The notes below the pieces were generated by a model. That model ran no database searches, was not told where the DNA came from, and saw only the letters and a program-made list of their open reading frames with translations. This document shows, piece by piece, positions 1,756 through 21,503 of a DNA stretch of 23,116 nucleotides; position 1 is the stretch's first letter; each line of letters opens with the position of its first letter. The position numbers and the translations under genes were made by a program. Source of the DNA: a virus; IMG/VR virus record IMGVR_UViG_3300022934_000196, positions 1 through 23,116 of that record; one strand, 5' to 3'.

Positions 1756-2727
1756 TTGGCCTATCAAGTCAGTGGTACTGAAAAGATAAAAGATGATAAT
1801 ACCGTAACATTTAAGAACGTTACGGTAAAGAATTACTATACGTTCTTGCAACCATATACATTTCAGGGAGAAACAAGTGGATATACTACTAGTGGATCGA
1901 CTGTACCAGGAGCGGCTTACCAAAATGTAATCCAAAAGTTTCCACTTAGCTCGGATGCTAACGCAACAGATGTTGGTGATTTAACGGTAACTAGGAGTGT
2001 TTCAGCAGGACAATCATCTGATGCAAATGGATATACATCTGGTGGAGCTCCTGCTTACAACACTATTGATAAATTTCCTTTTAGCTCAGATGCAAATGCA
2101 ACAGATGTAGGCGATCTAACTCAGACAAGATACTACGGAGCTGGGGAATCATCTGATGCTAGTGGATATCATTCGGGCGGATATGCAGGTGGACTTACAA
2201 ATGTAATTGATAAATTTCCTTTTAGCTCAGATGCAAATGCAACAGATGTTGGAGATTTAACAACCAACCGATCAGGCGTAAGATCAGGACAATCTTCTAC
2301 CGAAAACGGATATACATCTGGTGGTGGATTTCCACAGCCTCCTGTTAATATTATCGATAAATTTCCTTTCAGTTCTGATGCAAATGCAACAGATGTAGGT
2401 GATATAACACAAGGAAGAAGTGAAAGTGCTGGTCAATCATCAACAACTCATGGATATACTTCTGGGGGATATACAACAACTTCCGTAAACCCTATAGACA
2501 AATTCTCATTCAGTTCTGATGGTAATGCAACAGATGTTGGGGATTTAACTACGGTTAGAAATGGTGCAGCTGGGCAATCTTCTACGGCGAGCGGATATTC
2601 ATCTGGGGGGTATATTTCATCACCTAGTAATATTATTGATAAGTTCCCATTTAGCTCTGATGCAAATGCAACAGATGTAGGCGATCTAATTGGCGCATCT
2701 TATAATACTACAGGCCAACAGGTGTAG
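1756..2727 (+). CDS. Propeller paralogue A (six kelch-like repeats), TTG start
   Basis: Predicted 323-residue structural protein. Residues 1-36 form a type 1 head (MAYQVSGTEKIKDDNTVTF...), closely matching the heads of paralogues B and D. The rest is six blade repeats ending in TGQQV. The start is TTG at 1756: the matching residue of paralogue D is an ATG followed by the same Ala-Tyr, there is no other Met in the protein, and AAAGG sits 8 nt upstream at 1743-1747. It begins one base after the stop of the S74-domain gene. The blade repeats should make a six-bladed beta-propeller with the cut of the ring between the C-terminal GQQV and the first GETSGY. Probable role: phage surface adhesin or decoration protein, by analogy to kelch-type lectin folds and by position; the ligand is unknown. 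The last blade lacks the usual terminal Arg. Confidence 0.8.
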   Translation: MAYQVSGTEKIKDDNTVTFKNVTVKNYYTFLQPYTFQGETSGYTTSGSTVPGAAYQNVIQKFPLSSDANATDVGDLTVTRSVSAGQSSDANGYTSGGAPAYNTIDKFPFSSDANATDVGDLTQTRYYGAGESSDASGYHSGGYAGGLTNVIDKFPFSSDANATDVGDLTTNRSGVRSGQSSTENGYTSGGGFPQPPVNIIDKFPFSSDANATDVGDITQGRSESAGQSSTTHGYTSGGYTTTSVNPIDKFSFSSDGNATDVGDLTTVRNGAAGQSSTASGYSSGGYISSPSNIIDKFPFSSDANATDVGDLIGASYNTTGQQV

Positions 2728-2732
2728 ATATG
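2720..2732 (+). promoter_or_regulatory. Ribosome site embedded in the preceding stop region (A to B)
   Basis: The last codons of A (Gln-Val-stop) contain AGGTG at 2720-2724, exactly 5 nt before the ATG of B at 2730. The same layout recurs before C, F and H. Confidence 0.7.
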
Positions 2733-3707
2733 GTTTATAAAGTAGCAACAAGCGAGGTAATTAAAGACGATAATACTGCAGTCTTTTATGATGTTATTGT
2801 TGGTGTTCATCATGATCTAGCTCCGTCGTATACATTCCAAGGATCAACGAGTGGTTATACATCTGGTGGAATCATACCACCCTATACGAGTGTTATCGAT
2901 AAGTTTCCTTTTAGTAGCGATGCGAATGCCACTGATGTTGGCTTTTTAACTCAAGCAAGATCTGGTGCAGCAGGTCAATCATCAGATGCTAGTGGCTATA
3001 CATCTGGTGGTGACGCGGCGCCTTTTACAAATGTAATTGATAAGTTTCCTTTTAGTTCTGATGCTAATGCTACCGATGTAGGTGATTTGACTCAAGTAAA
3101 AAATGGTAGTGCTGGTCAATCATCTGCAGATAATGGATATACATCTGGTGGATCCTCTCCAGCTATTATTAATATTATTGAGAAGTTTCCCTTTAGTGTT
3201 GATGCAAATGCAACGGATGTTGGTGATTTGACTCAAGTAAGATACTATACTTCCGGTCAATCATCTGCAGATAATGGATATACATCTGGTGGACTCGTTC
3301 CACCTTATACGAATGTTATCGACAAGTTCCCTTTTAGCTCGGATGCAAATGCAACAGATGTAGGTGATTTAACTCAAGCAAGAGCATTTATCCCGGCCAC
3401 GGGTCAATCATCTGCAGATAATGGTTATACTACTGGGGGATTCGCACCACCAACAGTTAATACCATTGATAAGTTCCCATTTAGCTCTGATGCAAATGCA
3501 ACGGATGTTGGTGATTTGACTCAAACGAGATACAGTCCTGCTGGTCAATCGTCAACAACTCATGGATACTCTTCTGGTGGTGCAACTTTTCCGCCAACCG
3601 TTGCTAGAAATACAATTGATAAGTTTCCTTTCAGTACTGATACGAATGCAACTGATGTTGGTGATTTAACTCAAGCAAGAGTATATTGTGTAGGTCAACA
3701 GGTGTAG
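2730..3707 (+). CDS. Propeller paralogue B (six kelch-like repeats)
   Basis: 325 residues. The type 1 head (MVYKVATSEVIKDDNTAVF...) is followed by FQGSTSGYTSGG and six blades, ending VGQQV. Blades 3, 4 and 5 all open with the same QSSADNGYT[ST]GG element; at DNA level 39 bases are identical at 3114-3152 and 3255-3293, exactly 141 nt apart, which points to a recent within-gene blade duplication or conversion. Proline-containing loops (IIPPYTS, LVPPYTN, FAPPTVN) lie between the GG doublet and the IDKFPF strand. The first blade has DVGFLT where the consensus is DVGDLT. The gene starts 2 nt after the stop of A, with AGGTG from the GQQV codons of A as its ribosome site. Probable virion surface protein; ligand unknown. 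Confidence 0.8.
   Translation: MVYKVATSEVIKDDNTAVFYDVIVGVHHDLAPSYTFQGSTSGYTSGGIIPPYTSVIDKFPFSSDANATDVGFLTQARSGAAGQSSDASGYTSGGDAAPFTNVIDKFPFSSDANATDVGDLTQVKNGSAGQSSADNGYTSGGSSPAIINIIEKFPFSVDANATDVGDLTQVRYYTSGQSSADNGYTSGGLVPPYTNVIDKFPFSSDANATDVGDLTQARAFIPATGQSSADNGYTTGGFAPPTVNTIDKFPFSSDANATDVGDLTQTRYSPAGQSSTTHGYSSGGATFPPTVARNTIDKFPFSTDTNATDVGDLTQARVYCVGQQV
2976..3017 (+). repeat. 42-base exact repeat, copy 1 (in paralogue B)
   Basis: This segment in blade 2 of B, covering QSSDASGYTSGGDA, is identical base for base to 5278-5319 in blade 4 of D, in a family where synonymous positions normally differ. It suggests gene conversion or recent recombination between paralogues. Confidence 0.85.
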
Positions 3708-3712
3708 ATATG
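3700..3712 (+). promoter_or_regulatory. Ribosome site embedded in the preceding stop region (B to C)
   Basis: AGGTG at 3700-3704 within the terminal GQQV codons of B lies 5 nt before the ATG at 3710. It supports 3710, not the in-frame ATG at 3686, as the start of C. Confidence 0.7.
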
Positions 3713-4732
3713 GTTTATAAAATAAATGTACCACTTGTTGGTGGAGGAACAAGAAAGAAAGAGATTATTGATGCGGATAATAATCTAACTGTTGATGAAA
3801 TTAGAGCTAGAACTGTCTCAACATTTTTTAAATTTCAAGGTTCTACTAGTGGATATTCATCTGGTGGAAATCTTCCTTCTCGTACTAATGTGATTGAAAA
3901 ATTCCCTTTTGCTAGTGATGCAAATGCCGCAGATGTTGGAGACCTAACAGAGGCAAGGGGCAATTCTGCAGGGCAATCTTCATCAACAAATGGTTATACA
4001 TCTGGCGGCAATAACGGACCATCCGACGTGAATACAATTGATAAATTTCCATTCAGTAGTGATACCAATGCTACCGATGTAGGTGATTTAACACAAGCGA
4101 GATTACGTGCCGCTAGCCAGTCATCACAGACAAATGGTTACACGTCTGGCGGTCTCGATCCACCTCTTCCTTCATCCTCAGAAGATGTCGACACAATCGA
4201 TAAGTTTCCATTTAGTTCTGATGCTAATGCTACAGATGTAGGTGATTTGACTCAAGGAAGAAGTTATCTGCACTCTGGTCAATCATCAGATTTTAATGGA
4301 TATACATCCGGAGGATACGACGGCACCTTTGGGGATATTTTTAATACAATTGATAAATTTCCTTTTGCTACTGATGCGAATGCAACTGATGTAGGAGATT
4401 TAACTCAAGCAAGAAGAAGTGCTGTAGGGCAATCTTCATCCACTCATGGATATACATCAGGTGGTGCTTCTGGCCCGCCTACTAACCATCAAAACACGAT
4501 TGATAAGTTTCCATTTAGTATAAATGTTAACGTAACTGATGTTGGTAATTTAACCGATGCAAGAATCAATTCTTCAGGACAATCTTCAACTGCAAGTGGG
4601 TATACTTCAGGAGGATGGTCACCACCACGAGTAAATATAATCGATAAGTTTCCATTTAGCTCTGATGCAAATGCTACCGATGTCGGTGATCTAACACAAT
4701 CAAAAAACAGTCCTACAGGACAACAGGTGTAA
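3710..4732 (+). CDS. Propeller paralogue C (six kelch-like repeats)
   Basis: 340 residues from the ATG at 3710. An in-frame ATG at 3686 would add eight residues inside the end of B and has no ribosome site, whereas 3710 gives the family start MVYKI and has AGGTG 5 nt upstream. The head of about 43 residues (MVYKINVPLVGGGTRKKEI...ADNNLTVDEI) is longer and more charged than those of A and B, and its second half (IDADNNLTVDEIRARTVST) matches the type 4 heads of F and H. Six blades follow, ending TGQQV. Blade 5 is off-consensus (INVNVTDVGNLT). Blade 3 carries a long Ser/Pro loop (LDPPLPSSSEDVDT). Probable phage surface propeller; binding partner not visible. Confidence 0.8.
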   Translation: MVYKINVPLVGGGTRKKEIIDADNNLTVDEIRARTVSTFFKFQGSTSGYSSGGNLPSRTNVIEKFPFASDANAADVGDLTEARGNSAGQSSSTNGYTSGGNNGPSDVNTIDKFPFSSDTNATDVGDLTQARLRAASQSSQTNGYTSGGLDPPLPSSSEDVDTIDKFPFSSDANATDVGDLTQGRSYLHSGQSSDFNGYTSGGYDGTFGDIFNTIDKFPFATDANATDVGDLTQARRSAVGQSSSTHGYTSGGASGPPTNHQNTIDKFPFSINVNVTDVGNLTDARINSSGQSSTASGYTSGGWSPPRVNIIDKFPFSSDANATDVGDLTQSKNSPTGQQV

Positions 4733-4743
4733 TAAATAGAGTC
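4733..4743 (+). promoter_or_regulatory. Conserved 11-nt junction before D, late-promoter-like
   Basis: TAAATAGAGTC separates the stop of C from the ATG of D. With the stop codon it reads AATAAATA (4731-4738), one mismatch from the T4 late octamer TATAAATA. The identical 11-mer precedes E and a 9/11 match precedes G. A late promoter here would start transcription at about the ATG itself. Confidence 0.4.
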
Positions 4744-5715
4744 ATGGCTTATAAAGTATCGGGCACAGAATCAATTAAAGACGATAAAACTGTTGTATTT
4801 GAAAGTATAACCGCAACTGTTAGTAGACAGGCTGCACCTTCCTCTCCTTATACATTTCAAGGGTCGACAAGTGGTTATAGATCTGGTGGGTTAAGTACTA
4901 ATGTAATTGATAAGTTTCCTTTTGCCTCGGATGCAAATGCGACTGATGTGGGAAATCTAATTCAAGCTCTTGAAGGTACATCTGGACAATCTTCTAGCAG
5001 TCATGGATATGTCTCTGGCGGATCGCCACCCACGACAAACGTTATACAAAGGTTTCCTTTCAGTTCTGATAATAATGCTACTGATGTCGGGGATTTAACT
5101 CAAGTAATCCGGAATAGTGCAGGTCATTCTTCTAGCGCTGCTGGATATGTCTCTGGTGGATTATCGTCACCGCCACCGTCTTTGCGATCTAACGTTATAC
5201 AAAAGTTTTCTTTTGCGGTCGATGAAAATGCAATAGATGTCGGTGACTTAACTCAATCAAGAGAAGATGTAACCGGCCAATCATCAGATGCTAGTGGCTA
5301 TACATCTGGTGGTGACGCGCCACCTTATACAAACTTAATTGATAAGTTTCCTTTTAGCTCGGATGCTAACGCTACAGACGTAGGTGATTTGACTCAAGCA
5401 AGAGGTGGTAGTGCTGGTCAATCATCAACAACAAATGGGTATACGTCTGGTGGAAATGGACCACCTTATACAAATGTAATTGATAAGTTTCCTTTTAGTT
5501 CAGATGCAAATGCTACTGATGTCGGGGATTTAACTCAAGCAAGATCTAATGGAGCAGGTCAATCTTCTACAGCAAGTGGATACACATCTGGTGGCCGGGT
5601 AGGAATTCCTAACAGTAATATTATTGATAAGTTTCCTTTTAGTTCAGATGCAAACGCAACAGATGTCGGCGACTTAACCTTAGAAACACGCGGCGCTTCG
5701 GGTCAACAAGTATAA
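4744..5715 (+). CDS. Propeller paralogue D (six kelch-like repeats)
   Basis: 323 residues with a type 1 head (MAYKVSGTESIKDDKTVVF...) nearly matching that of A, then six blades ending SGQQV. Blades 1-3 are the most divergent (NVIQRFPF, NVIQKFSF, AVDENAIDVGDLT, and GNLIQAL with no terminal Arg), while blades 4-6 are close to consensus. Blade 4 holds a 42-base stretch identical to blade 2 of B, evidence for exchange between paralogues. The start lies 11 nt after the stop of C, and the AGGTG in the end of C is 15 nt or more away, so translation start must differ from that of B, C, F and H. Likely a virion surface protein; no enzymatic residues are apparent. Confidence 0.8.
   Translation: MAYKVSGTESIKDDKTVVFESITATVSRQAAPSSPYTFQGSTSGYRSGGLSTNVIDKFPFASDANATDVGNLIQALEGTSGQSSSSHGYVSGGSPPTTNVIQRFPFSSDNNATDVGDLTQVIRNSAGHSSSAAGYVSGGLSSPPPSLRSNVIQKFSFAVDENAIDVGDLTQSREDVTGQSSDASGYTSGGDAPPYTNLIDKFPFSSDANATDVGDLTQARGGSAGQSSTTNGYTSGGNGPPYTNVIDKFPFSSDANATDVGDLTQARSNGAGQSSTASGYTSGGRVGIPNSNIIDKFPFSSDANATDVGDLTLETRGASGQQV
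5278..5319 (+). repeat. 42-base exact repeat, copy 2 (in paralogue D)
   Basis: Identical to 2976-3017 in paralogue B. Just downstream, the loop codons differ (Pro-Pro-Tyr here, Ala-Pro-Phe in B), so the exchanged tract seems to end inside the variable loop. Confidence 0.85.
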
Positions 5716-5726
5716 TAAATAGAGTC
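5716..5726 (+). promoter_or_regulatory. Conserved 11-nt junction before E, late-promoter-like
   Basis: TAAATAGAGTC, identical to the spacer before D. Here the end of D is GTATAATAAATAG, so the octamer AATAAATA again has one mismatch to TATAAATA. D ends in CAAGTA rather than CAGGTG, so no AGGTG ribosome site is present before E. Confidence 0.4.
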
Positions 5727-6752
5727 ATGGCATACAAGATTTCAGATACAGCAATTATTGTAGAATCAGACGGTGAAACTATTCTGATTGCTGAGTCTTT
5801 TCAGTATGAAAATAGTATTACCATTTTAGATTTTGATTTTAGTTTAAGTCCAGATTATATTGCAGATTATTTTAAGGCTCCTGCCCAAGGATCAACGAGT
5901 GGATATACGTCGGGAAGGAATCCCGGTTCTAATGTAATTGATAAATTTCCTTTTAGTACAGATGCAAATGCTACCGATGTAGGGGATTTAAGCGTAGGAA
6001 GAAATTCCTCGGCAGGTCAATCATCATCTGCCAACGGATATACTTCCGGTGGACAGGCTCCACTTGTTCCTGCAGATTATAATATAATTGATAAGTTTCC
6101 ATTTAGTTCTGATGCTAACGCAACTGATGTCGGAGATCTAACCGGTTCTAGATTTACATTAGCTGGTCAATCATCAATTAGCAGTGGTTATATATCAGGT
6201 GGGGAGTCTCCGACTCCTGCTGATCTAAATATAATAGAAAAATTTCCATTTAGTACTGATGCAAACGCGACTGATGTAGGAGACTTAACACAAGCAAGGA
6301 GTTTCGTAGCTGGTCAATCATCTGCAGATAATGGCTATACATCTGGTGGTGAAACTGGGGCCAGTAGAGTTAACACAATCGATAAGTTCCCATTTTCTTC
6401 AGATGCAAACGCTAGCGATGTTGGTGATTTATCTCAAGCAAGATCTCGGTTTGCAAGTCAATCTTCACGAGTAAGTGGATATTCTTCAGGAGGGATTAGT
6501 CCACCTGCAGTTAATACCATTGATAAGTTTCCCTTTGCCTCTGATGCTAATGCTACAGATGTAGGTGATTTGACTCAGTCAATATACGGAATGGCTGGAC
6601 AATCATCATCTACTAATGGTTATAGATCTGGTGGGGGATTTCCAAGTAGTTCTAATGTAATTGATAAATTTCCTTTTAGCGTTGATGCTGATGCTACAGA
6701 TGTAGGTGATTTGACTGTATCTGGGGGATTTTCTGCAGGACAACAGGTGTAA
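5727..6752 (+). CDS. Propeller paralogue E (six kelch-like repeats)
   Basis: 341 residues. It has the longer type 3 head of about 53 residues: MAYKISDTAIIVESDGETI, LIAES, then SLSPDYIADYF, shared with G and I. Six blades follow, ending AGQQV. Blade 5 ends LTQSIYG and blade 6 LTVSGGF, both lacking the framework Arg. The start is the ATG 11 nt after the stop of D, matching the head of I (MSYKISDTAIIIESDG). The type 3 head looks like a small beta-hairpin followed by a hydrophobic/acidic helix and may be the part that anchors the propeller to a specific place on the particle (inference). The SPDY[IF].DYF motif is the best handle for finding relatives. Confidence 0.8.
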   Translation: MAYKISDTAIIVESDGETILIAESFQYENSITILDFDFSLSPDYIADYFKAPAQGSTSGYTSGRNPGSNVIDKFPFSTDANATDVGDLSVGRNSSAGQSSSANGYTSGGQAPLVPADYNIIDKFPFSSDANATDVGDLTGSRFTLAGQSSISSGYISGGESPTPADLNIIEKFPFSTDANATDVGDLTQARSFVAGQSSADNGYTSGGETGASRVNTIDKFPFSSDANASDVGDLSQARSRFASQSSRVSGYSSGGISPPAVNTIDKFPFASDANATDVGDLTQSIYGMAGQSSSTNGYRSGGGFPSSSNVIDKFPFSVDADATDVGDLTVSGGFSAGQQV

Positions 6753-6757
6753 CGATG
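6745..6757 (+). promoter_or_regulatory. Ribosome site embedded in the preceding stop region (E to F)
   Basis: AGGTG at 6745-6749, from the GQQV codons of E, lies 5 nt before the ATG of F, with TAA as the stop instead of TAG. Confidence 0.7.
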
Positions 6758-7714
6758 GTCTATAAACTCGACGCAGGTACAGTTATTGATGCAGAAGGTA
6801 ACTTAGTTATCGAGAATCTGTATGCTGGTAGTGTTACACAAAAAACCCAAGCACAAGGAACAACATCTGGATATACATCAGGGGGATTTCCTGGACCAAC
6901 CGCCGTTAATGTTATCGATAAATTTCCTTTTAGTACTGATGCCAATGCAACAGATGTTGGCGATTTAACAGCTGCAAGAGCCTTAGTTACAGGTCAATCT
7001 TCTTCTGCAAGTGGATATACATCAGGCGGAAGTAGTACTAATACAATAGATAAGTTTCCTTTTAGTTCTGATGCAAATGCAACAGACGTTGGTGATTTAA
7101 CGGTAGCAAGGGATGATCTGACAGGTGGGCAATCTTCTACATCGAATGGATATGCTACTGGTGGTATGATAACTTTTACTAGTCAGAACATTATTGAAAA
7201 ATTCCCATTTAGCGCTGATGCAAATGCTACTGATGTTGGAGATTTGACAGCTGGAAGACATCGAACAGCTGGTCAATCATCAACTGCAAGTGGATACACA
7301 TCTGGGGGTCTTACAATGCCGGGATTTACATATCAAAATGTAATTGATAAGTTTCCATTTAGTTCTGATGCAAATGCTACGGATGTTGGCGACTTGACCC
7401 AAGGAAGATGGGAACTTACAGGTCAATCGTCATCTGCTAGTGGATATAATTCTGGCGGAGAAGCGCCACCACACGTTAATACAATTGACAAATTTTCATT
7501 TAGTTCTGATGCAAATGCTACTGATGTTGGGGATTTAAGTGTAGCAAGAGATGGTTCTGCAGGCCAATCATCTACCGAAAATGGATATTCATCAGGCGGT
7601 TCTGCTGCTGGGCCAAATGTAATCGACAAATTCCCTTTTAGTAGTGATGCAAATGCAACTGACGTTGGTGATTTGAGTCAAGGAAGAAGTTTTGGTGCGG
7701 GTCAGCAGGTGTAA
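6755..7714 (+). CDS. Propeller paralogue F (six kelch-like repeats)
   Basis: 319 residues, the shortest of the nine. The short type 4 head (MVYKLDAGTVIDAEGNLVIE, then NLYAGSVTQ) is followed by QGTTSGYTSGG and six regular blades ending AGQQV. All six blades keep the terminal Arg (LTAAR, LTVAR, LTAGR, LTQGR, LSVAR, LSQGR), so this is the most regular propeller of the set. It begins 2 nt after E. E and F together resemble the pair G and H in head type and junction type, which suggests that a two-gene unit was duplicated. Probable phage surface adhesin or decoration subunit; ligand unknown. Confidence 0.8.
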   Translation: MVYKLDAGTVIDAEGNLVIENLYAGSVTQKTQAQGTTSGYTSGGFPGPTAVNVIDKFPFSTDANATDVGDLTAARALVTGQSSSASGYTSGGSSTNTIDKFPFSSDANATDVGDLTVARDDLTGGQSSTSNGYATGGMITFTSQNIIEKFPFSADANATDVGDLTAGRHRTAGQSSTASGYTSGGLTMPGFTYQNVIDKFPFSSDANATDVGDLTQGRWELTGQSSSASGYNSGGEAPPHVNTIDKFSFSSDANATDVGDLSVARDGSAGQSSTENGYSSGGSAAGPNVIDKFPFSSDANATDVGDLSQGRSFGAGQQV

Positions 7715-7725
7715 TAAATAGTATC
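7715..7725 (+). promoter_or_regulatory. Junction before G, late-promoter-like
   Basis: TAAATAGTATC matches the 11-nt spacers before D and E at 9 of 11 positions. With the stop codon it again gives AATAAATA (7713-7720). Confidence 0.35.
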
Positions 7726-8835
7726 ATGGCAAAGTATAATATTAACGACAAAACAATATTAACAGATTCTGGAGGACGTACCCTTATTGCAGAATCCCTT
7801 ACCCATACAGGTACTTTTACTGCAACAAATACTATTGATAACCTGTCACCAGATTATTTTACAGATTATTTTGCTGCACCATATGTGTTCCAAGGATCTA
7901 CAAGTGGCTATAATGCTGGTGGGGGATTTCCTATAGCGACCCAAGGAAACATAATAGATAAGTATTCTTTTGCAACAGATGCAAATGCAACTGATGTTGG
8001 TGATTTATCTTTATTGAAAAATGTTGCTGCAGGTCAATCATCAAATGCAAATGGCTATGCTTCAGGTGGAACAGCAAACCCTGGTCAGGGATATGGTCCA
8101 GGTTCCAATCCTTCTACAGTTGGTGAAATAGATAAGTATCCGTTTGCTTCTGATGGTAACGCAACGGATATTGCCGATCTCTATGCTCGTATTAATAGTG
8201 CGGTTGGACAGAGTTCCGCAGATAATGGATACGTATCTGGCGGCACGACGACCAATCCCGCGCCAGGACAAGTATCAACAGAGCCCTTTACTAATAACAG
8301 TAATATTATTCAAAAATTTCCATTTGCGAGCGACACAAATGGATCAAATGTTGGGGATTTAACCGAAGGAAGAAAAAAACCAGCCGGACAAAGTAGTAGC
8401 ACACACGGATATAATGCTGGTGGGCTTCAGCCGCCACTTTATCTCAATACTATTGATAAATTTACTTTTGCATCAGATGCCAATGCAACAGATGTCGGGG
8501 ATCTAACAAATGGATATTTCGATGCTATGGGGCAGTCATCAAGTAGCAGTGGATATTCTTCTGGGGGAAATACTACTCCGCCTTTTCAATTAAGAGACAC
8601 CATTGAAAAATTCCCCTTTGCAACAGACGCTAATGCAAGTAATGTAGGCAGTTTAACATCAGCAAGAGACGAAGCAGGAACATCTTCTTCGACTGCAAGT
8701 GGATACACCGCAGGGGGTAGAAATCCAGGATACACCAACATTATTGATAAATTTCCCTTTGCCTCTGATGGTACTGCATCAGATGTTGGAGATTTAACTT
8801 CGAATAGGGGTCAAATAGCAGGTGCACAGGTGTAA
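7726..8835 (+). CDS. Propeller paralogue G (six kelch-like repeats, most divergent)
   Basis: 369 residues, the longest of the nine. The type 3 head is MAKYNINDKTILTDSGGRT, LIAES, a Thr-rich insert, then LSPDYFTDYF, as in E and I. The six blades are the most drifted of the array: DKYSFATDANAT, DKYPFASDGNATDIADLYARI, QKFPFASDTNGSNVGDLT, DKFTFASDANAT, EKFPFATDANASNVGSLT and DKFPFASDGTASDVGDLT. Blade 2 has lost the DVGDLTxxR frame and sits between long loops (TANPGQGYGPGSNPSTVGE; TTTNPAPGQVSTEPFTNNS). The gene ends AGAQV, not GQQV, but AGGTG is kept as the ribosome site for H. It starts 11 nt after F. Divergence with an intact frame argues for an older, selected copy and not decay. Confidence 0.8.
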   Translation: MAKYNINDKTILTDSGGRTLIAESLTHTGTFTATNTIDNLSPDYFTDYFAAPYVFQGSTSGYNAGGGFPIATQGNIIDKYSFATDANATDVGDLSLLKNVAAGQSSNANGYASGGTANPGQGYGPGSNPSTVGEIDKYPFASDGNATDIADLYARINSAVGQSSADNGYVSGGTTTNPAPGQVSTEPFTNNSNIIQKFPFASDTNGSNVGDLTEGRKKPAGQSSSTHGYNAGGLQPPLYLNTIDKFTFASDANATDVGDLTNGYFDAMGQSSSSSGYSSGGNTTPPFQLRDTIEKFPFATDANASNVGSLTSARDEAGTSSSTASGYTAGGRNPGYTNIIDKFPFASDGTASDVGDLTSNRGQIAGAQV

Positions 8836-8840
8836 CGATG
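8828..8840 (+). promoter_or_regulatory. Ribosome site embedded in the preceding stop region (G to H)
   Basis: AGGTG at 8828-8832 lies in the final Gln-Val codons of G, 5 nt before the ATG of H. It is kept although the protein end of G has changed from GQQV to GAQV. Confidence 0.7.
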
Positions 8841-9827
8841 GTTTATAGAGTTAACAGAGATCCAATCATTGACAATAATAGAACTCTTCGCGTTGACCGG
8901 ATGCGTGTTGGTTCTTTTTCAAAAACAGGGATTGGATCTAATACTACCCAAGGTTTTAGGACTGGCGGCGCGCCAGGCCCTGCAGCAGCTCAGGATACTA
9001 TAGAAAAGTTTCCATTTAGTTCTGATGCGAATGCTACTGATGTAGGCGATTTAACCGTAGCAAGAGGAGATCTTAGTTCTACAAGTTCAGGTGTAAGTGT
9101 ATATAGTGCTGGAGGTAAAGAGGGTTCGGGAATGACAACCGACGCAGGTAAAAATGAGATTGATAAATTCTCAATTAGTAGCGGGGGTAATGCTACTGAT
9201 GTAGGAGACATGAGTACTGCAGGATCGACCGGTGCTGGCCAGCAATCATCTTCTCATGGTTATGGTACTGGCGGGGGTCAGGCACCTCCTTTTACGCAGT
9301 TAGATAGAATAGACAAATATTCTTTTAGCTCAGACGGTAATGCTAGTGACATAGGTAATTTGACGGTTGCTAGATTTCGACAGTCAGGACAATCTTCTTT
9401 ATCTCATGGTTATACTTCTGGTGGTGGTACGCTTCCTCCTTTTACAGTTAGAAATGAAATTGACAAATTTCCTTTTAGCTCAGATACAAATGCTACAGAT
9501 GTTGGAGATTTAGTTACAAGCACTGAAGGTGCTGACGGTCAATCTTCAGGTGAAAGTGGATATAGTTCTGGTGGATGGGGACCTGGTAATTTAAATGTAA
9601 TCCAAAAATTTCCCTTTAGTGTTGATGCAGGATCAACTGACGTAGGAGATTTAACCACAGCAAGACCGAATGTTGGTGGGAGTAGTTCCTCAGAGAATAA
9701 TGGATATACACTTGGTGGTAATAATACAAATATTATCGATAAGTTTCCGTTTAGTAATGATACAAGCGCATCAGATGTAGGAGACTTAACTGTAACTACT
9801 CGAGACGGTGCTGGAAGTCAAGGATAA
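8838..9827 (+). CDS. Propeller paralogue H (six kelch-like repeats, divergent)
   Basis: 329 residues. The type 4 head (MVYRVNRDPIIDNNRTLRVD, then RMRVGSFS) is short and basic. Six blades follow, but several are irregular: blade 2 is DKFSISSGGNATDVGDMS and has a charged loop (KEGSGMTTDAGKNE), blade 3 is DKYSFSSDGNASDIGNLT, blade 4 ends DLVTST and blade 5 is SVDAGSTDVGDLT. The protein ends GAGSQG and not GQQV. It starts 2 nt after G. The next gene starts 3 nt downstream and uses AAGGA from the new ending as its ribosome site. Probably a phage surface propeller like its neighbours. Confidence 0.8.
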   Translation: MVYRVNRDPIIDNNRTLRVDRMRVGSFSKTGIGSNTTQGFRTGGAPGPAAAQDTIEKFPFSSDANATDVGDLTVARGDLSSTSSGVSVYSAGGKEGSGMTTDAGKNEIDKFSISSGGNATDVGDMSTAGSTGAGQQSSSHGYGTGGGQAPPFTQLDRIDKYSFSSDGNASDIGNLTVARFRQSGQSSLSHGYTSGGGTLPPFTVRNEIDKFPFSSDTNATDVGDLVTSTEGADGQSSGESGYSSGGWGPGNLNVIQKFPFSVDAGSTDVGDLTTARPNVGGSSSSENNGYTLGGNNTNIIDKFPFSNDTSASDVGDLTVTTRDGAGSQG

Positions 9828-9830
9828 AAA

Positions 9831-10865
9831 ATGTCATATAAGATTTCAGATACAGCGATCATTATTGAGTCAGACGGAAAGGTAATATTAATTGCTGAAG
9901 AAGCTGCGTTTAAAAACTCACTTAATGTTGATGGAACATTTTTTGATTTAGATGAAGATTATTTTACAGATTATTTTCCTTCATTCCAAGGATCTACAAG
10001 TGGATATACATCAGGTGGTACATTTATAACACCTCTTACATATGATGGTAACATAATAGATAAATTTCCTTTTAGCTCAGATGCAAATGCAACAGATGTA
10101 GGAGATTTAACACAGGGTAGATATGATGCTGGTGCAGGTCAATCATCATCTGAAAATGGATATACATCAGGTGGTGCGCTTTATCCGATCAGTTCGGTGG
10201 ATACAATCGAAAAGTTTCCATTTAGTTCTGATGCAAATGCTACTGATGTAGGAGATTTAACAGTAGCAAGATCTGGTGTTGCCGGACAATCTTCATCTTC
10301 TCACGGATATACTACCGCCGGTACCGGATCTCCGTTTCCCGTTACAGACGATAGAATTGATAAGTTTTCTTTTTCATCAGATGGAAATGCTACTACCGTA
10401 GGTGGTGTAGGCCCACCTTTCTCGGGTGTGAGATATGGATATTCAGGTGCTTCATCAGACGCAAATGGGTATGCATTCGGGGGAGGTAAAATTACAAAAT
10501 TTCCATTCGCAACAGATGCGAATGCCCCAGAGGTAGGAAATTTAATTGGGTATGATAGATATGGTTCGGGACAATCTTCAGATGCGAATGGATATAGATC
10601 TGGAGGAGATACAATTAATGTTATACAAAAGTTTCCCTTTTCAACAAATGCTAATTCATCAGATGTTGGTGATTTAACATCAACAAAACGTTCCCCAGCA
10701 GGTCAATCTTCTACAATAAGTGGATATGTATCAGGTGGAACAATTGGGCCGCCTGATACAGGATTTAATGTTATTGAGAAATTCCCATTTAGTTCTGACG
10801 CCAATGCAGCAGATGTTGGTGACCTTACTAATGAACGATATAGCGCCTCAGGCCAACAGATTTAA
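9831..10865 (+). CDS. Propeller paralogue I (six kelch-like repeats, last of array)
   Basis: 344 residues with a type 3 head (MSYKISDTAIIIESDGKVI, LIAEE, LDEDYFTDYF) very close to that of E. Blades 1 and 2 are regular. Blade 3 is broken in its second half (NATTVGGVGPPFSGVRYG). Blade 4 has lost the whole loop after the Gly doublet (FGGGKITKFPFATDANAPEVGNL), making it the smallest blade of the 54. Blades 5 and 6 return towards consensus. The protein ends SGQQI: the codons that elsewhere supply AGGTG are CAGATT here, and no gene follows within 45 nt, so the ribosome-site motif seems kept only where it is needed. AAGGA at 9820-9824 precedes the start at 9831. Role as for the other paralogues. Confidence 0.8.
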   Translation: MSYKISDTAIIIESDGKVILIAEEAAFKNSLNVDGTFFDLDEDYFTDYFPSFQGSTSGYTSGGTFITPLTYDGNIIDKFPFSSDANATDVGDLTQGRYDAGAGQSSSENGYTSGGALYPISSVDTIEKFPFSSDANATDVGDLTVARSGVAGQSSSSHGYTTAGTGSPFPVTDDRIDKFSFSSDGNATTVGGVGPPFSGVRYGYSGASSDANGYAFGGGKITKFPFATDANAPEVGNLIGYDRYGSGQSSDANGYRSGGDTINVIQKFPFSTNANSSDVGDLTSTKRSPAGQSSTISGYVSGGTIGPPDTGFNVIEKFPFSSDANAADVGDLTNERYSASGQQI

Positions 10866-10882: not shown

Positions 10883-10911
10883 ACTTTACATAATTACTTT
10901 ATGAGGTGAAA

Positions 10912-12171
10912 ATGAATTCCGCAGAATATTTTGAAAAAAATCGATACATTTATCTTTCAGAGGTTTTATCTAAAGATATATGTCAGGATCTTACCCAACA
11001 TATGCACAATCTTCACAAGGAAGGTCAACTTGTTCAGGATGAACAATGTCCGCTTTCTTGGTCAGTTTATGGTGACCCAAAGTTTGATGCATTACTTGCA
11101 AACCTAGCAAAACCAATTGGTGAAAAGTTAGGAGTAGAAATACTTCCAACATATACCTATGCACGTCTTTATCAGCCAGGCGACATTCTGAAAAAACATA
11201 CAGATAGACCATCGTGTGAAATTTCTGGAACAATGACTCTTGGTTATGATCCTGATTCAGCAATTTGGCCAATTTTCTTTGGTAAAGATCAGGATGATCC
11301 TGGTACATCTTATCAAATTGATGTTGGCGATTTGGTTATGTATCGTGGAAATGAACTCGTACATTGGAGACCTGCTTACAAAGGTAAATGGCAAGTACAA
11401 GTATTCTTCCACTATGTTGATGCAAATGGACCACATAAAGAATGGGCAAATGATAAAAGACCTGAACTTGGTTTGGATTCAAATACAAGGGAAGAAGTAA
11501 AATTGAAGCCTAAAGAAGAACCTGATGCCTATGAATTCAAATATCATTTCTCACCGAATACAATGGCCGTTTTACCACAAGCAGATCATATGCCTGGATA
11601 TGCAGCTTTTTATAGCGGATTTAAACCAAACCTAGCTTTTACACCTGAAGAATGTGATCGTATTATTGCAACAGCAAATCAACAATATGCATCGAAAGCA
11701 AGGGTTGGTTCTGAAGCAACTTCAAAAACAGATCTCAGTATTCGAAATGTAGATCAGTACCATATTGGATTGAATGACGATACAAGATGGATTTATGATA
11801 AGTTAATGTTAGCAACTGCAATGGCTAACCACGAACATTTCAAATATAATATTAGTGGTATTACCCATGAACTTCAGTTACTGCATTACCGTTCAGATGA
11901 TGGTAATGGTCATTATGACTGGCATGTTGACGTAGGTCATGGTCATTCTGCATGTCGTAAAATTTCTATTTCAGTTATGCTTTCACCCGATGATAAATAC
12001 AAAGGCGGAGATTTAGAAGTAAACGATCATGGAATATTTAGACAAGGTATTCGTGAACAGGGATCAATTAACTTATTCCCAAGCTATATGCCGCATCGTG
12101 TTGCACCTGTTACCGAAGGTGAAAGGTGGGCACTTGTTATATGGATTAATGGGCCAGATAGATTCAAATAA
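10912..12171 (+). CDS. Tandem-domain 2OG-Fe(II) oxygenase
   Basis: 419 residues with two dioxygenase-like domains in one chain. The N-terminal domain (about 1-180) has H96-T-D98 in ILKKHTDRP as the iron-binding HxD, DVGDLVMYRGNELVHW with distal H151, and a basic strand KGKWQVQVFFHY. The C-terminal domain (about 230-419) is of the prolyl-4-hydroxylase/PKHD type: YDWHVDVGHG with H338-V-D340, ISISVMLSPDDKYKGGDLEV, then SYMPHRVAPVTEGERWALVIW with H395 and R405 for 2OG. Enzymes of this fold use O2 and 2OG to hydroxylate protein side chains or small molecules; the substrate here is unknown. I start at the ATG at 10912, after GAGGTGAA; the in-frame GTG at 10906 lies inside that ribosome site. Being next to the propeller genes makes virion proteins a reasonable substrate guess. 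Confidence 0.85.
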   Translation: MNSAEYFEKNRYIYLSEVLSKDICQDLTQHMHNLHKEGQLVQDEQCPLSWSVYGDPKFDALLANLAKPIGEKLGVEILPTYTYARLYQPGDILKKHTDRPSCEISGTMTLGYDPDSAIWPIFFGKDQDDPGTSYQIDVGDLVMYRGNELVHWRPAYKGKWQVQVFFHYVDANGPHKEWANDKRPELGLDSNTREEVKLKPKEEPDAYEFKYHFSPNTMAVLPQADHMPGYAAFYSGFKPNLAFTPEECDRIIATANQQYASKARVGSEATSKTDLSIRNVDQYHIGLNDDTRWIYDKLMLATAMANHEHFKYNISGITHELQLLHYRSDDGNGHYDWHVDVGHGHSACRKISISVMLSPDDKYKGGDLEVNDHGIFRQGIREQGSINLFPSYMPHRVAPVTEGERWALVIWINGPDRFK

Positions 12172-12181
12172 GGAGAAATAA

Positions 12182-12529
12182 ATGCCTGTTGTAGAATATA
12201 AAATGCACGTTGTTACAAATAAAGGTGGAGCAACTGCGCCTCTCTGGGTAGATGATGGTGGTTATCATACATCTCCTATTGATAAAACAAAAGTTGGTTG
12301 GGTATTACCCGAAGCCGATCGTGAGTACTATGTACCAGATACTGTAACTGAATTATCGAAAAGTGAATTTGTTACACGTCAATTAGCTATCCATGCCGTT
12401 CAGCCGTTCCAAAATCAACCGGAGGATTCAGATGGCCAACCTGATGGCGATCCTGTTGATATGACAAATGCTGAAGTAACTACTGAAATGGAATCATGGT
12501 ACGATTCTTTTGTGAGTGATCATAGCTAA
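12182..12529 (+). CDS. Small conserved-looking phage protein of unknown function
   Basis: 115 residues, not recognised. It starts MPVVEYKMHVVTNKGGATAP with a beta-rich first half containing aromatic residues (GGYHTSPIDKTKVGWVLPEA), then a stretch LSKSEFVTRQLAIHAV, an acidic Pro/Asp/Gly linker and an acidic helical tail ending ESWYDSFVSDHS. AAGGAGA at 12171-12177 gives a good ribosome site. It lies between two modification-type genes and begins 10 nt after the oxygenase. The 'EFVxRQLxIHA' stretch recalls small phage fibre-accessory proteins, but this is too weak for a name. Confidence 0.8.
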   Translation: MPVVEYKMHVVTNKGGATAPLWVDDGGYHTSPIDKTKVGWVLPEADREYYVPDTVTELSKSEFVTRQLAIHAVQPFQNQPEDSDGQPDGDPVDMTNAEVTTEMESWYDSFVSDHS

Positions 12530-12657
12530 TGGAAATCTTTCTTGCAAAGAAAATACTTGAGCTTGATGAACACGATCTTGAAAGTATTTTAATGAAATTG
12601 AAAATGGAAGATCGCGATGCTTATGAAAAATTGCAGGAGATAGTTGAAGACTTATAA
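12529..12657 (+). CDS. Very small acidic helical ORF (42 residues)
   Basis: The ATG at 12529 overlaps the preceding TAA by one base (TAATG), an arrangement also used at 13396 and 16192 in this window. The translation starts MEIFLAKKILELDEHDLESI and ends with a Lys/Glu/Asp-rich helix (YEKLQEIVEDL). It fills a gap that would otherwise be about 114 nt in a genome with almost no gaps, and its 3' end overlaps the next gene by 14 nt if that gene starts at 12644. The function is unknown. Its length makes chance possible, but the TAATG coupling and the full use of the gap support it. Confidence 0.6.
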   Translation: MEIFLAKKILELDEHDLESILMKLKMEDRDAYEKLQEIVEDL

Positions 12658-13396
12658 TATTATGAATCATTATGAACGTTTTTTGAAACTAAAACAATTT
12701 ACGGATTGTGTCGGACCGATATACGGTACTGAGGATTTTGGAATATATTTTTATTCGGTTATCAAAATGATGAAACCGAAGAGTATTCTAGAACTTGGTA
12801 CTGGTCTTGGAACAACAATGTTATGGGCTGCACAAGCACTTGACGAAAACAATCAAGGTGAAATTCATACCATCGATGACGGAAGTGAGTGGGATCACTT
12901 AAAGAAAGCCCGTGACCAAATGGGGGAATACTTCCGTGAAGATTATCTTTTCTATATTGAAAATCTAATTGATTCATTTAATGTAAGAAAGTTTGTAGAA
13001 TTTCATCCTGTTGAAATAAAAGAAATCCAATCTGATAATCCAATTGATATACTCTTTTCTGATTTTGCACACGGTCCAGGTGATGTACTTCAATTGCTTG
13101 CGGAATTTCTTCCTCAGATGAATAGCTATAGTAAAATCTATATCGATTCTGCTTCTACACATTATGGATCATATCATACACTTGAAAAAGTAATTGATAT
13201 GTTTAACCAGAATACAATACCACTTTCAATACTTGAAAGATCAACAAACGAAAAAATACATCAGGTAATACATACAAGCCAGTTTCAATTAGATCACATT
13301 GTAGAAAACAAAGATCGTTCACAAAATAGTACTGCTTGTATTACAATACAGCCATATGATGTGTTTCCTTATCCGAGAGTAAATGTGAGATATTAA
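12644..13396 (+). CDS. SAM-dependent methyltransferase-like protein
   Basis: 250 residues from TTG 12644, or 244 from ATG 12662. The TTG has AGGAG at 12635-12639 upstream, while the ATG has no ribosome site at usual spacing, so I list the TTG with reserve. The motif I signature is clear: SILELGTGLGTTMLWAAQAL (I48-T57 with GTGLG), followed by an acidic end of strand 2 at HTIDDGSEW and a motif IV-like strand PIDILFSDFAHGPG. This fits the class I Rossmann methyltransferase fold, closest in feel to the Methyltransf_24 group that acts on small molecules or sugars. The substrate cannot be read. The gene is flanked by 2OG oxygenases and its stop overlaps the next start (TAATG), so it is likely co-expressed with them and may act on the same target. 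Confidence 0.75.
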   Translation: MKTYNIMNHYERFLKLKQFTDCVGPIYGTEDFGIYFYSVIKMMKPKSILELGTGLGTTMLWAAQALDENNQGEIHTIDDGSEWDHLKKARDQMGEYFREDYLFYIENLIDSFNVRKFVEFHPVEIKEIQSDNPIDILFSDFAHGPGDVLQLLAEFLPQMNSYSKIYIDSASTHYGSYHTLEKVIDMFNQNTIPLSILERSTNEKIHQVIHTSQFQLDHIVENKDRSQNSTACITIQPYDVFPYPRVNVRY

Positions 13397-13941
13397 TGAA
13401 CGTAATTGATAATGTAATTGGCGACAAATATTCTCAATTAATTTTTGATGAATGTGCAAAACTACCATGGACATTTGTACCAGATATATCATTCGGTAAC
13501 CAAGCAAAACGTAGTGTTCCTGGATTTTCACATAGCTTTTATCTTGATAAAGAATTCAATAATAATGAACCAGTTACAATTGAATCTGAAAAATATTCTT
13601 TTATCAAACCAATGCTTCTCGAGGCATTTGATAAACTTGGTCTTGATGTTAACCTCAATAATGTTTTTCGTAGTCGGGCAAGATTAACACTTGATCGGCC
13701 TGAACTACCTGAAGAAGATCGTATTGACAACGTTCATGTAGATTATCAAACACCACACCTTGTACTCATTTATTATGTTAATAACGTTGATGGTGATACT
13801 CTTGTTTATGAAAATAACAAATTAATTGAAAGTGTAACACCAAGAAGAGGGAGATGTTTACTTTTCAATGGTTCTTTACATCATACATCAACAACCCCAG
13901 CTCTTGGTCCAAGAATTATTATTAATAACAATATAAGGTGA
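13396..13941 (+). CDS. 2OG-Fe(II) oxygenase (prolyl-hydroxylase-like)
   Basis: 181 residues. The dioxygenase core is H114-V-D116 in DNVHVDYQTP, the strand HLVLIYYVNNVDGDTLVYEN, then PRRGRCLLFNGSLHHTS with distal H162 or H163, and R173 in GPRIIINNNI for 2OG binding. This is the compact phage-type 2OG oxygenase frequently found in T4-like marine phages. It differs from the tandem enzyme at 10912, so it is not a recent copy. The start overlaps the methyltransferase stop by one base. The C-terminal codons AGG-TGA double as the ribosome site (AAGGTGAAAC) for the next gene. The substrate is unknown; protein Pro, Asn or Lys are possible. Confidence 0.85.
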   Translation: MNVIDNVIGDKYSQLIFDECAKLPWTFVPDISFGNQAKRSVPGFSHSFYLDKEFNNNEPVTIESEKYSFIKPMLLEAFDKLGLDVNLNNVFRSRARLTLDRPELPEEDRIDNVHVDYQTPHLVLIYYVNNVDGDTLVYENNKLIESVTPRRGRCLLFNGSLHHTSTTPALGPRIIINNNIR

Positions 13942-13944
13942 AAC

Positions 13945-14499
13945 ATGCATCATAATCAACATAATCTTTTTGAAACACCTATCTGGGGATTTGTACTCAA
14001 CGACCAAAATTTTCAAACAATTGATTATAGTGAATATATTTTAGATCTGGCAGATACAGAACAATCCGAAACAAAGAGTAATATGGGTGGTTGGCAATCG
14101 AGAGATAACCTTTATCAAGATCCAATCTTTCAGGAATTTAATAAAGCAATATTAGTAGCTGCTGCTGGTGATGTGCTGAAAGATTATACAGATAAAGAAC
14201 CTTATATCCAAAGCATGTGGGCAAATATTAATGTAAAAGGTGATTATAATGCTCACCATGCACACGAAGGTGAACTTTCAGGGGTATATTATTGTCAGGT
14301 TCCAAAGAATCCTGGAAGATTAGTACTTGTAAATCCGGCTGTTAGGTCATATATTTCTGTAATAAAAAATAAGAATTTTTATATTAATCCTGAAAGGCTT
14401 GCCTTAATTATGTTCCCAAGTTGGTTAGAACACTATGTCGAACCAAACCAAAGTGATAATCCAAGAATTAGCATTAGCTTTAATATAGGAATTAAATAA
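13945..14499 (+). CDS. 2OG-Fe(II) oxygenase, 2OG-FeII_Oxy_5-like
   Basis: 184 residues. It opens with NLFETPIWGFVL, then NMGGWQSRDNLY, MWANINVKGDYNAHHAHEGE, LSGVYYCQVP, LIMFPSWLEHYVEPN and PRISISFNIGIK. This order is typical of the putative oxygenase family PF13759 found in marine phages and bacteria (identified by eye). The iron ligands would be H105-A-H107 (HxH in place of HxD) and distal H163, with R174 for 2OG. It is the third oxygenase gene and a third sequence type within 3.6 kb. It starts 3 nt after the previous stop and ends just before a perfect late promoter. Role: probable hydroxylation of an unidentified substrate. Confidence 0.85.
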   Translation: MHHNQHNLFETPIWGFVLNDQNFQTIDYSEYILDLADTEQSETKSNMGGWQSRDNLYQDPIFQEFNKAILVAAAGDVLKDYTDKEPYIQSMWANINVKGDYNAHHAHEGELSGVYYCQVPKNPGRLVLVNPAVRSYISVIKNKNFYINPERLALIMFPSWLEHYVEPNQSDNPRISISFNIGIK

Positions 14500-14538: not shown

Positions 14539-15294
14539 ATGGCAAATCCTAACTCCCGTGCTACACTGATAGATTATTGTAAAAGAAGACTCGGAGATCC
14601 TGTCATCGAGATTAATGTTGATGAGGATCAGCTTGAAGATCGTGTAGACGAGGCATTACAATACTATCAAGAATATCATTCAGATGCTACAGTACGTACA
14701 TATTTGAAACACTTGGTAACTTCTACTGATATTGCAAATGAATATATTTCATTATCATCAAACATTCTATTTGTTACAAAACTTTTCCCAATAGCAAGTT
14801 CTTTTAATAGCTCATTTAACTTCTTTGATATTAAATATCAAATGATGCTAAACGATATTGCTGACTTACAGAACTTTGCTGGTGATTTAGCATATTACGA
14901 ACAGATGCAGCAATACTTGGCTTTGCTTGATGTAAAGCTAAATGGCCATCCGCAAGTACAGTTTTCCCGTAGACAGAATCGTCTTTATATCTTTGGTGAC
15001 TTTGCTGATGAAGATATTAAAGAAGGCGAATACGTTGTTGCAGAAACATTCCAAATTGTAGATCCGGATACACATACATCAGTTTATAATGATATGTGGC
15101 TCAAAGAATATACAACTGCACTCATTAAACAACAATGGGGAGCAAATTTAATTAAGTTTGAAGGTATGCAACTTCCTGGTGGTGTAATTCTAAATGGAAG
15201 ACAGATTTACGATGATGCAACAACAGATATTGATAAACTAAGAGAAACTATTCGGATGGAACATGAAATGCCACCTGACTTCTTTATAGGTTAA
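14539..15294 (+). CDS. 13: gp13 neck / head-completion protein
   Basis: 251 residues, shorter than T4 gp13 (309). The N-terminus MANPNSRATLIDYCKRRLGD followed by PVIEINVDEDQLEDRVDEALQYYQEYHSDA is the signature of this family. The rest is mixed alpha/beta with FTKLFPI-type and DIKYQMMLNDI segments. In T4, gp13 and gp14 form the neck that seals the portal after packaging and docks the tail. Gene order (13-14-15-16-17-18-19-20) confirms the call. The site GGAG is 6 nt before the ATG, and a perfect late promoter stands upstream. Confidence 0.93.
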   Translation: MANPNSRATLIDYCKRRLGDPVIEINVDEDQLEDRVDEALQYYQEYHSDATVRTYLKHLVTSTDIANEYISLSSNILFVTKLFPIASSFNSSFNFFDIKYQMMLNDIADLQNFAGDLAYYEQMQQYLALLDVKLNGHPQVQFSRRQNRLYIFGDFADEDIKEGEYVVAETFQIVDPDTHTSVYNDMWLKEYTTALIKQQWGANLIKFEGMQLPGGVILNGRQIYDDATTDIDKLRETIRMEHEMPPDFFIG

Positions 15295-15298
15295 TCGA

Positions 15299-16192
15299 AT
15301 GGCAAGAAACGTATACTTTACTGATAAGGTTAGATCAGAACAAAATCTTTATGAAGATATTGTCATTGAATCTCTGAAGATTTATGGGCAAGACGTTTAT
15401 TATATTCCAAGAGATATTGTATCTGAAGATAAAATCTTTGGTGACGATATACCATCACGTTTTAATTCTTCGCATAAGATTGAAATGTATATTGAAAATA
15501 TTGAAGGCTTTGAAGGTGAAGGCGATCTCTTTACACGATTCGGTGTAGAGATTCGTGATGAAGCTACATTCGTTGTATCACGTCGTAGATGGACACAAAC
15601 AGTTGCACGTATGGATAACGGTGTAACATCAGTTCGTCCGCTCGAAGGCGATTTAATTTTCCTTCCGCTTTCAAATAAACTTTTCCAAATTATGCATGTT
15701 GAACATGAACAACCTTTTTATCAGTTAAGTAACTTACCAGTTTATAAACTACGTGCACAACTCTTTGAATATAACGATGAAGATCTTGATACTGGCGTTG
15801 ATGTAATTGACAATATTGAAAAGCAATATGCATACACATATCTACTGAAACTCGACGAAGCAAGTAGTATTATTGTACCAGGCGAAACAGCTACACAAAC
15901 ACTTTCAAGTGGCGTAACTATTTCTGGCGAAATTACAAAATGGTCTGATTCTGATAAGCTTCTCCATCTTGTACATATTGATACAAGCGATAATAAGTAT
16001 CACGAATTTACGACTGGTACAATTACAATTACAGGTGATCGAAGAGATGTTGATTCGGATATGACTGTTAGCTCGATTACTGAAGATAATCGTATTTCTT
16101 CGAACGAGCAGAATGATGACTTTAGTACTCTTGCCGGTGACTTCCTTGACTTTAGTGAAGATAACCCGTTTGGCGATCCGGAGAATAATTAA
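15299..16192 (+). CDS. 14: gp14 neck protein
   Basis: 297 residues, somewhat longer than T4 gp14 (256). The start MARNVYFTDKVRSEQNLYED, YGQDVYYIPRDIVSEDKIFGDD and FTRFGVEIRDEATFVVSRRRW are characteristic of the family. Residues of about 185-275 form a Thr/Ser-rich stretch (GETATQTLSSGVTISGE...) that reads like an inserted beta domain, common in marine T4-like gp14. It works with gp13 at the head-tail joint. It starts 4 nt after gene 13 with AGG 8 nt upstream, and its last bases overlap the start of gene 15 (TAATG). Confidence 0.93.
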   Translation: MARNVYFTDKVRSEQNLYEDIVIESLKIYGQDVYYIPRDIVSEDKIFGDDIPSRFNSSHKIEMYIENIEGFEGEGDLFTRFGVEIRDEATFVVSRRRWTQTVARMDNGVTSVRPLEGDLIFLPLSNKLFQIMHVEHEQPFYQLSNLPVYKLRAQLFEYNDEDLDTGVDVIDNIEKQYAYTYLLKLDEASSIIVPGETATQTLSSGVTISGEITKWSDSDKLLHLVHIDTSDNKYHEFTTGTITITGDRRDVDSDMTVSSITEDNRISSNEQNDDFSTLAGDFLDFSEDNPFGDPENN

Positions 16193-18894: not shown

Positions 18895-18898
18895 ATAT

Positions 18899-18906
18899 TA
18901 TAAATA
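18899..18906 (+). promoter_or_regulatory. T4-type late promoter before gene 18
   Basis: A perfect TATAAATA lies 4 nt after the gene 17 stop, 63 nt upstream of the sheath gene start. With AAAAGGA at 18956-18962 as ribosome site, it would give a leader of about 58 nt, the longest in the window. High late expression of sheath and tube fits. Confidence 0.8.
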
Positions 18907-18969
18907 ATATGAAATTGAAGATAACCGTATTATGAGAACATATAATTAGTAACCGAAAAGGAAAAAAGT

Positions 18970-20919: not shown

Positions 20920-20930
20920 GGAGATAAGAA

Positions 20931-21467: not shown

Positions 21468-21476
21468 ATAAATATA

Positions 21477-21503
21477 GGGAGGACTTAACGGTCCTCCTTC
21501 TTA
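21477..21503 (+). terminator. Hairpin terminator between genes 19 and 20
   Basis: GGAGGAC (21478-21484) pairs perfectly with GTCCTCC (21491-21497) around a 6-nt loop, with a possible extra U-G pair closing a UAAC tetraloop and a G-U pair at the base. It is followed by TTCTTAT, a short and imperfect T-run. Position after the abundant tube/sheath genes suits a late transcription stop or attenuator before the portal. Confidence 0.8.

Follow-up and report, generated by a model that had tools for sequence, protein, structure and literature searches.

The window analysed here is a virus record of 23,116 bp (IMG/VR IMGVR_UViG_3300022934_000196), and nine consecutive genes on its + strand (genes A–I, positions 1756-10865) encode in tandem a set of repeat proteins that are predicted to fold into closed six-bladed propellers of the Kelch type. 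The proteins are probably virion surface-binding heads that have been diversified by head swapping and loop change. Each consists of a short N-terminal region, hereafter called the plug, followed by the propeller, with the following coordinates.

1756-2727, + strand: gene A, TTG start; plug 1756-1878, six-bladed propeller from 1879
2730-3707, + strand: gene B; plug 2730-2852, propeller from 2853
3710-4732, + strand: gene C; plug to 3850, propeller from 3851
4744-5715, + strand: gene D; plug 4744-4872, propeller from 4873
5727-6752, + strand: gene E; plug 5727-5900, propeller from 5901
6755-7714, + strand: gene F; plug 6755-6868, propeller from 6869
7726-8835, + strand: gene G; plug 7726-7905, propeller from 7906; B-C loops of blades 2 and 3 long
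8838-9827, + strand: gene H; plug 8838-8951, slot-orthologous to plugs of the related contigs L014 and L020; propeller from 8952
9831-10865, + strand: gene I; plug 9831-10001, propeller from 10002; blades the most drifted, still six

For gene C, an alternative TTG start at 3686 overlaps gene B, and the ATG at 3710 is the likelier start.

Predicted fold and repeat number

In terms of repeat content, a hidden Markov model (HMM) of the blade, built from the repeats themselves, identified exactly six full repeats of approximately 47 residues in every one of the nine genes (54 in total), with scores of 46.8-89.7 bits per blade. Even the lowest-scoring blades, the third and fourth of gene I (46.8 and 49.6 bits), were unambiguous. 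The pattern of six per gene across nine genes is far beyond chance.

The AlphaFold2 model of the gene B protein, based on 89 sequences, had a mean predicted local distance difference test (pLDDT) score of 93.4, with values of around 98 across the propeller, and a predicted template modelling (pTM) score of 0.89. When this model was compared with the PDB using Foldseek, the best matches were six-bladed Kelch structures, namely the designed protein SAKe6 (TM score of 0.94 on the target length), Keap1 (0.91), and KLHL12, with E values of ~1e-20. Gene I, the most drifted of the nine, was modelled with a pLDDT of 87.7 and gave PDB matches of the same kind. In both models, the blades are four-stranded and antiparallel, as in the Kelch superfamily, with the strand order B-C-D-A in each repeat, and the conserved terminal strand GQQV/GQQI (residues 321-324 in B and 340-343 in I) is predicted to sit as strand A of blade 1. 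In Keap1, the C-terminal A strand likewise closes blade I (PMC4668279). With blade 1 completed by the GQQV strand, and the ring thereby closed as the models predict, the repeat number would not be free to drift.

At the sequence level, the double glycine that ends strand B in Kelch repeats was well conserved (G in 94% and 96% of repeats 1-5 in the nonredundant set), and the Kelch Tyr of strand C and Trp of strand D were absent, strand C having F (93%) and strand D (TDVGDL) containing no Trp. Pfam gave no Kelch match at E<=1 in any of the nine proteins, and a phmmer search of the PDB with gene B returned only chance matches, so that a fold comparison was needed. Pfam matches to THDPS_M, DUF4907, and NucA/NucB, which were below or near the cut-off, were rejected as artefacts of the repeats. 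The repeat proteins of the window fall in PHROG 19111/27227, for which no function is annotated. Based on the models, we have high confidence that this family consists of divergent sequences with the Kelch propeller fold, Kelch-like by fold and not Kelch-motif proteins by sequence.

The repeat number was also counted in the unique closed (complete) open reading frames (ORFs) of related loci collected from IMG/VR. Six repeats were found in 236 of the 247 such ORFs of the window's family, which came from scans seeded with a six-bladed protein, the nearer relatives of which come back first. The exceptions were short fragments, copies that had diverged strongly, and a handful of genes with five blades. 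One of these, in L029, shows a clean loss of 147 bp, equal to one blade, relative to the near-identical L030; this loss may be an assembly collapse. When 18 loci were picked via the companion gene at 473-1423 (described below) and not via the propeller, they again contained mostly six repeats. A sister family, which includes the cultured Synechococcus phage S-SKS1, had twelve repeats in 50 of 69 ORFs, arranged as 6 + linker + 6, with a conserved linker (GGAS.RIKGSRTY) and extra spacing between repeats 6 and 7. The ORFs of this family that were scored as having eleven repeats mostly showed one double-length gap, i.e., one repeat had been missed. Such quantisation in sixes was an independent prediction of the closed-ring reading, and it came out true. 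In S-SKS1 itself, the propeller genes (L009 and L010) straddle the two termini of the linear record as deposited and appear as partial ORFs; intact twelve-repeat relatives are present in IMG/VR.

The codons used at conserved residues in the window were identical in 52% of comparisons, versus 45% expected from independent synonymous choice. Agreement so near independence means that the synonymous sites are nearly saturated and the copies are old, which indicates that both frame and repeat number are kept by selection; this analysis rules out recent duplication or gene conversion as the source of the window's uniformity. In the L011/L012 phage, unlike the window, the framework codons of the propeller genes were 76% identical, which points to recent homogenisation or expansion in that phage. 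A first-pass annotation of the window, made from its sequence alone, had described nine tandem genes with six repeats each and had argued for a closed six-bladed propeller whose repeat number is held by selection and is not that of a free repeat array. The coordinates and counts proved correct, the structure prediction that it had proposed as a check gave six-bladed Kelch-type propellers for genes B and I, and the near-saturated synonymous sites and the counts in both families bear out the rest.

Variable loops and exchange of heads

An entropy profile of 1,080 blades from the nonredundant set showed that columns with an entropy >2.8 bits occurred only in the B-C and D-A loops of each blade. 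Entropy was 2.9-4.0 bits in the B-C loop, which follows the double glycine and often carries insertions, and up to 3.7 bits in the D-A loop, which surrounds the conserved arginine and extends past it. The C-D loop was nearly fixed, the A-B loop was intermediate, and strands A-D were near constant. Where the four strands of a blade run up and down, the B-C and D-A loops must emerge on one and the same face, and in Keap1 these loops form the substrate pocket (PMC4668279). We therefore expect, with high confidence, that each protein would carry twelve variable loops on a single side of a rigid disc; the common face follows from the topology and not from a measured surface. The first-pass annotation had noted a constant frame and a variable loop between the Gly doublet and IDKFPF; that loop does vary, but a second, equally variable segment after the R (the D-A loop) had been overlooked.

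The propeller was nearly always the C-terminal end of the protein, with 0-1 residues after it in 170 of 187 proteins, and the regions N-terminal to it belonged to many unrelated families. Some of the relatives' propellers sit behind Mtd_N (PF18454, E=1.4e-15), collagen repeats with a match to a tail-fibre PHROG (8e-40), or TIG domains, and these N-terminal parts are, judging from the domain matches, phage fibre stems and anchors. The division into plug and propeller is that of receptor-binding phage fibre proteins, with an N-terminal anchor and a variable C-terminal head, the known stems being found in the relatives only.

When the window was compared with its close relatives, contigs L014/L015 (which overlap each other) and L020, the flanking genes were 72-94% identical and the plugs in the same slot 53-87%, whereas the propellers in the same slot were only 52-71% identical. 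Furthermore, the identity of the propellers was not predicted by that of the plugs, propellers behind recognisably equivalent plugs having a mean identity of 58.6% vs 58.4% for other pairs (p=0.93). This pattern indicates that plugs keep their slot across related phages and that propellers appear to have been shuffled. In one pair of genes, L020:9971 and L014:2098, the propellers were 88% identical and the plugs only 28%, and the switch point was a common sequence, GGATCTACGAGTGGATATGC, encoding the GSTSGY junction. At the nucleotide level, this pair provides direct evidence that a head has been exchanged between slots. Separately, blade 2 of gene B and blade 4 of gene D share 87% DNA identity, variable loops included, compared with a median of 63%, which suggests transfer of a single blade between paralogues. 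Diversification by a diversity-generating retroelement (DGR) was rejected, as no reverse transcriptase (RVT_1, PF00078) was found in ten related records, some of which are possibly incomplete; the template repeat of such an element was not searched for.

Genomic position of the array

The array lies between a gene for a fibre-type chaperone domain and a block of T4-like structural genes, i.e., in a fibre region, and the features outside the array are as follows.

473-1423, + strand: array companion gene, 316 aa, no known family
1395-1754, + strand: Peptidase_S74 / chaperone of endosialidase domain protein (fibre-trimer chaperone type); PF13884, E=2.9e-16, and PHROG tail families
10906-12171, + strand: 2OG-Fe(II) oxygenase (2-oxoglutarate- and iron-dependent), first gene past the array; PF13640, 1.3e-14
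12182-12529, + strand: 115-aa ORF without known family, present in 32 of 65 array loci
14539-23078, + strand: T4-like gp13, gp14, gp15, gp16, gp17, gp18, gp19, and gp20; gp16 and gp17 assigned by synteny and similarity to phage C48C1
4732-4738 (before D), 5715 (E), 7714 (G), 14502 (gp13), 18900 (gp18), and 21468 (gp20), + strand: ATAAATA late-promoter-like sites

Among complete phages, the nearest is C48C1 (terminase 73.5% identical), which carries a large tail-fibre gene at the site of the array and has no propellers. In pelagi- and cyanomyophages, a hypervariable host-recognition cluster adjoins the neck genes and holds fibre genes, collagen, and Mtd domains (PMC7029224). The array, located just upstream of gp13, occupies this hypervariable host-recognition site. 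The earlier description of a modular surface-binding set in the fibre position of a T4-like phage is thus consistent with the chaperone gene before the array, gp13-gp20 after it, and the fibre gene of C48C1 at the same site, as well as with the swapping of plugs and heads and the fusion to fibre stems in relatives; the suggestion that the array has no known parallel did not survive, as such arrays are common in uncultured T4-like viral contigs. Five loci (L019, L048, L058, L060, and L074) have propeller genes within the group of neck genes, in most cases between gp14 and gp15, which makes a second insertion site within a conserved structural operon.

The ATAAATA motif resembles the core of the T4 late promoter. 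Six of its eight + strand copies fall within the 1.75% of positions that are non-coding, a placement that is above chance, the total count not being so; the copies before D, E, and G sit in one common intergenic sequence and are not fully independent. This placement fits late expression.

The product of the companion gene matched nothing in Pfam, in PHROGs, or among 50,697 phage records. Six-bladed genes were found nearby in 16 of the 18 viral contigs that carry its family, and the other two contigs were short. If the propellers have a partner dedicated to their assembly or attachment, this product is the strongest candidate. As for the host, assignment to cyanophages was rejected, since psbA was absent from nine related records and present only in S-SKS1. 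Six contigs of metagenome-assembled genomes carry relatives, but these may be viral contigs binned with bacteria, and no host is claimed.

Proposed function and competing explanations

In the explanation that we favour, each gene would encode a virion tail or baseplate-fibre protein in two parts. The N-terminal plug (~38-60 residues) would dock the protein to one particular virion site, and the C-terminal propeller would bind a host-surface molecule through the hypervariable B-C and D-A loops, twelve on one face. Diversity would come from loop change and from entire heads moving from one plug to another, with the break at the conserved QGSTSGY junction (one direct case, many pairs implied), and nine genes with distinct plugs would allow one phage to display several heads as a multi-receptor repertoire. 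A broader proposal, which we put forward tentatively, is that this T4-like lineage uses the rigid six-bladed scaffold as a DGR-free repertoire, with many heads per virion in slot-specific sockets, traded as cassettes between sockets and between phages, and with a protein of the 473-1423 family assembling or connecting the heads.

Several observations weigh against the receptor-binding explanation. The window's own plugs matched no known fibre domain in Pfam, and the plugs of genes B and I were modelled at low confidence (pLDDT of about 43-68), for which reason we can only infer their docking. A clear head swap at the nucleotide level was seen once, and the other pairs also fit fast divergence on a conserved frame; the synonymous sites of the window are too saturated for events to be dated. 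In addition, neither proteomic data from virions nor data on ligands or adsorption were found for any family member examined.

The proteins could instead be virion components without receptor binding, such as whiskers or decorations of the head, neck, or tail, which would bind particles, mucus, or other virions or stabilise the virion, with the loops varying neutrally. This is rather improbable. It would suit the proximity of the array to the neck genes gp13/gp14 and the relatives with propeller genes between gp14 and gp15, and in the jumbo phage CBB, a Kelch protein without an assigned role is present in the virion (PMC5259590); however, the variable positions keep to the ligand face of the fold, the Mtd_N, collagen, and TIG stems of the relatives are typical of fibres, and the array is at a known host-recognition cluster. 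The same stems, together with plugs that vary by slot, argue against intracellular Kelch-like binders of host proteins that would act in counter-defence or host takeover, like eukaryotic BTB-Kelch adaptors. Although the fold and the binding face are as in the Keap1 and KLHL domains, no BTB domain was found by Pfam in the nine proteins of the window, and the genes are in a late structural block with late-promoter-like sites, which makes this explanation very unlikely.

Kelch-type carbohydrate enzymes of the galactose-oxidase or sialidase type, degrading host glycans, come to mind because galactose oxidase is the label of some phage Kelch proteins among the BFVD matches. Nevertheless, the variable face has no conserved polar cluster, the invariant residues belong to the framework, and no enzyme family in Pfam or PHROG matched above the cut-off, so that we give this idea slightly less credence still than that of intracellular binders. 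Finally, six could be an accident of recent duplication or assembly in a free repeat array, as might be read from the five-blade gene of L029 with its 147-bp loss and from the S-SKS1 copies broken into ORFs of differing repeat number. This is contradicted by the 236 of 247 ORFs with six repeats, by the 6 + linker + 6 sister family, and by the loci chosen via the companion gene, and the identical-codon fraction (0.52 vs 0.45 expected) indicates old copies; its probability is therefore negligible.

Kelch proteins in phage virions are already known. In the jumbo phage vB_PcaM_CBB, CBB_550, 552, and 554 form a small cluster of Kelch-type propellers, and CBB_552 was found in the virion by mass spectrometry (PMC5259590); unlike the array, this cluster has three genes recognised by InterPro Kelch models, and no modular plug array was described. 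BFVD lists virion proteins of PhiPA3, Noxifer, and Phabio with the same fold, and P-HM2 has a Kelch-repeat gene (PMC3037559). The Kelch domains of Keap1, KLHL12, and SAKe6 share with the window proteins the six four-stranded blades, the double glycine ending strand B, the closing C-terminal A strand, and the B-C and D-A loops on one face, whereas the window proteins are only ~15% identical to them, have no Pfam Kelch match, strand-D Trp, or BTB domain, and occur in a phage fibre context. The repeat proteins of PHROG 19111/27227 and S-SKS1 belong to the same repeat superfamily, S-SKS1 being the only cultured match among the 50,697 phage records, but those of the S-SKS1 type have twelve repeats (with its own copies fragmented) and 35% identity. 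Mtd and other DGR-diversified receptor-binding proteins also combine an N-terminal anchor with a variable C-terminal head, and Mtd_N itself occurs in some relatives; here, the head is a Kelch propeller and not a C-type lectin fold, the diversity would come from swapping and loop change, and the ten related records contain no reverse transcriptase. The host-recognition cluster of pelagi- and cyanomyophages is at the same hypervariable site by the neck genes, and the main text of PMC7029224 mentions no Kelch or propeller proteins in it. No open-access paper describing such arrays was found, most of the subscription literature not being searchable, and the tandem, slot-anchored, swappable arrays, the rule of six or twelve, and the companion gene appear to be new.

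The host-recognition proteins of aquatic T4-like phages are largely undefined, and their fibre genes are mostly annotated as 'hypothetical'. For PHROG 19111, there is now a fold, together with a predicted binding face, a swap junction, and a position in the genome, which make the family recognisable in metagenomes and testable as purified proteins. The family is also a natural scaffold, with a fixed Kelch frame that carries twelve variable loops, and the occurrence of six or two times six repeats is a clean evolutionary demonstration of how ring closure limits repeat number.

Two minor observations concern the array and its downstream neighbours. In several genes, the C-terminal GQQV codons (CAACAGGTG) place an AGGTG string, which resembles a Shine-Dalgarno sequence, right before the next start (ends of A-H, e.g., 3696-3712), and these strings could bring about translational coupling along the array. 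Between the array and gp13 (10906-14499), there are three 2OG-Fe(II) oxygenase genes, a methyltransferase gene, and a small ORF. Oxygenase and methyltransferase genes accompany the arrays in many relatives, a 2OG-Fe(II) oxygenase being found beside the arrays in 37 of 65 array loci, and these enzymes may possibly modify fibre proteins or host glycans.

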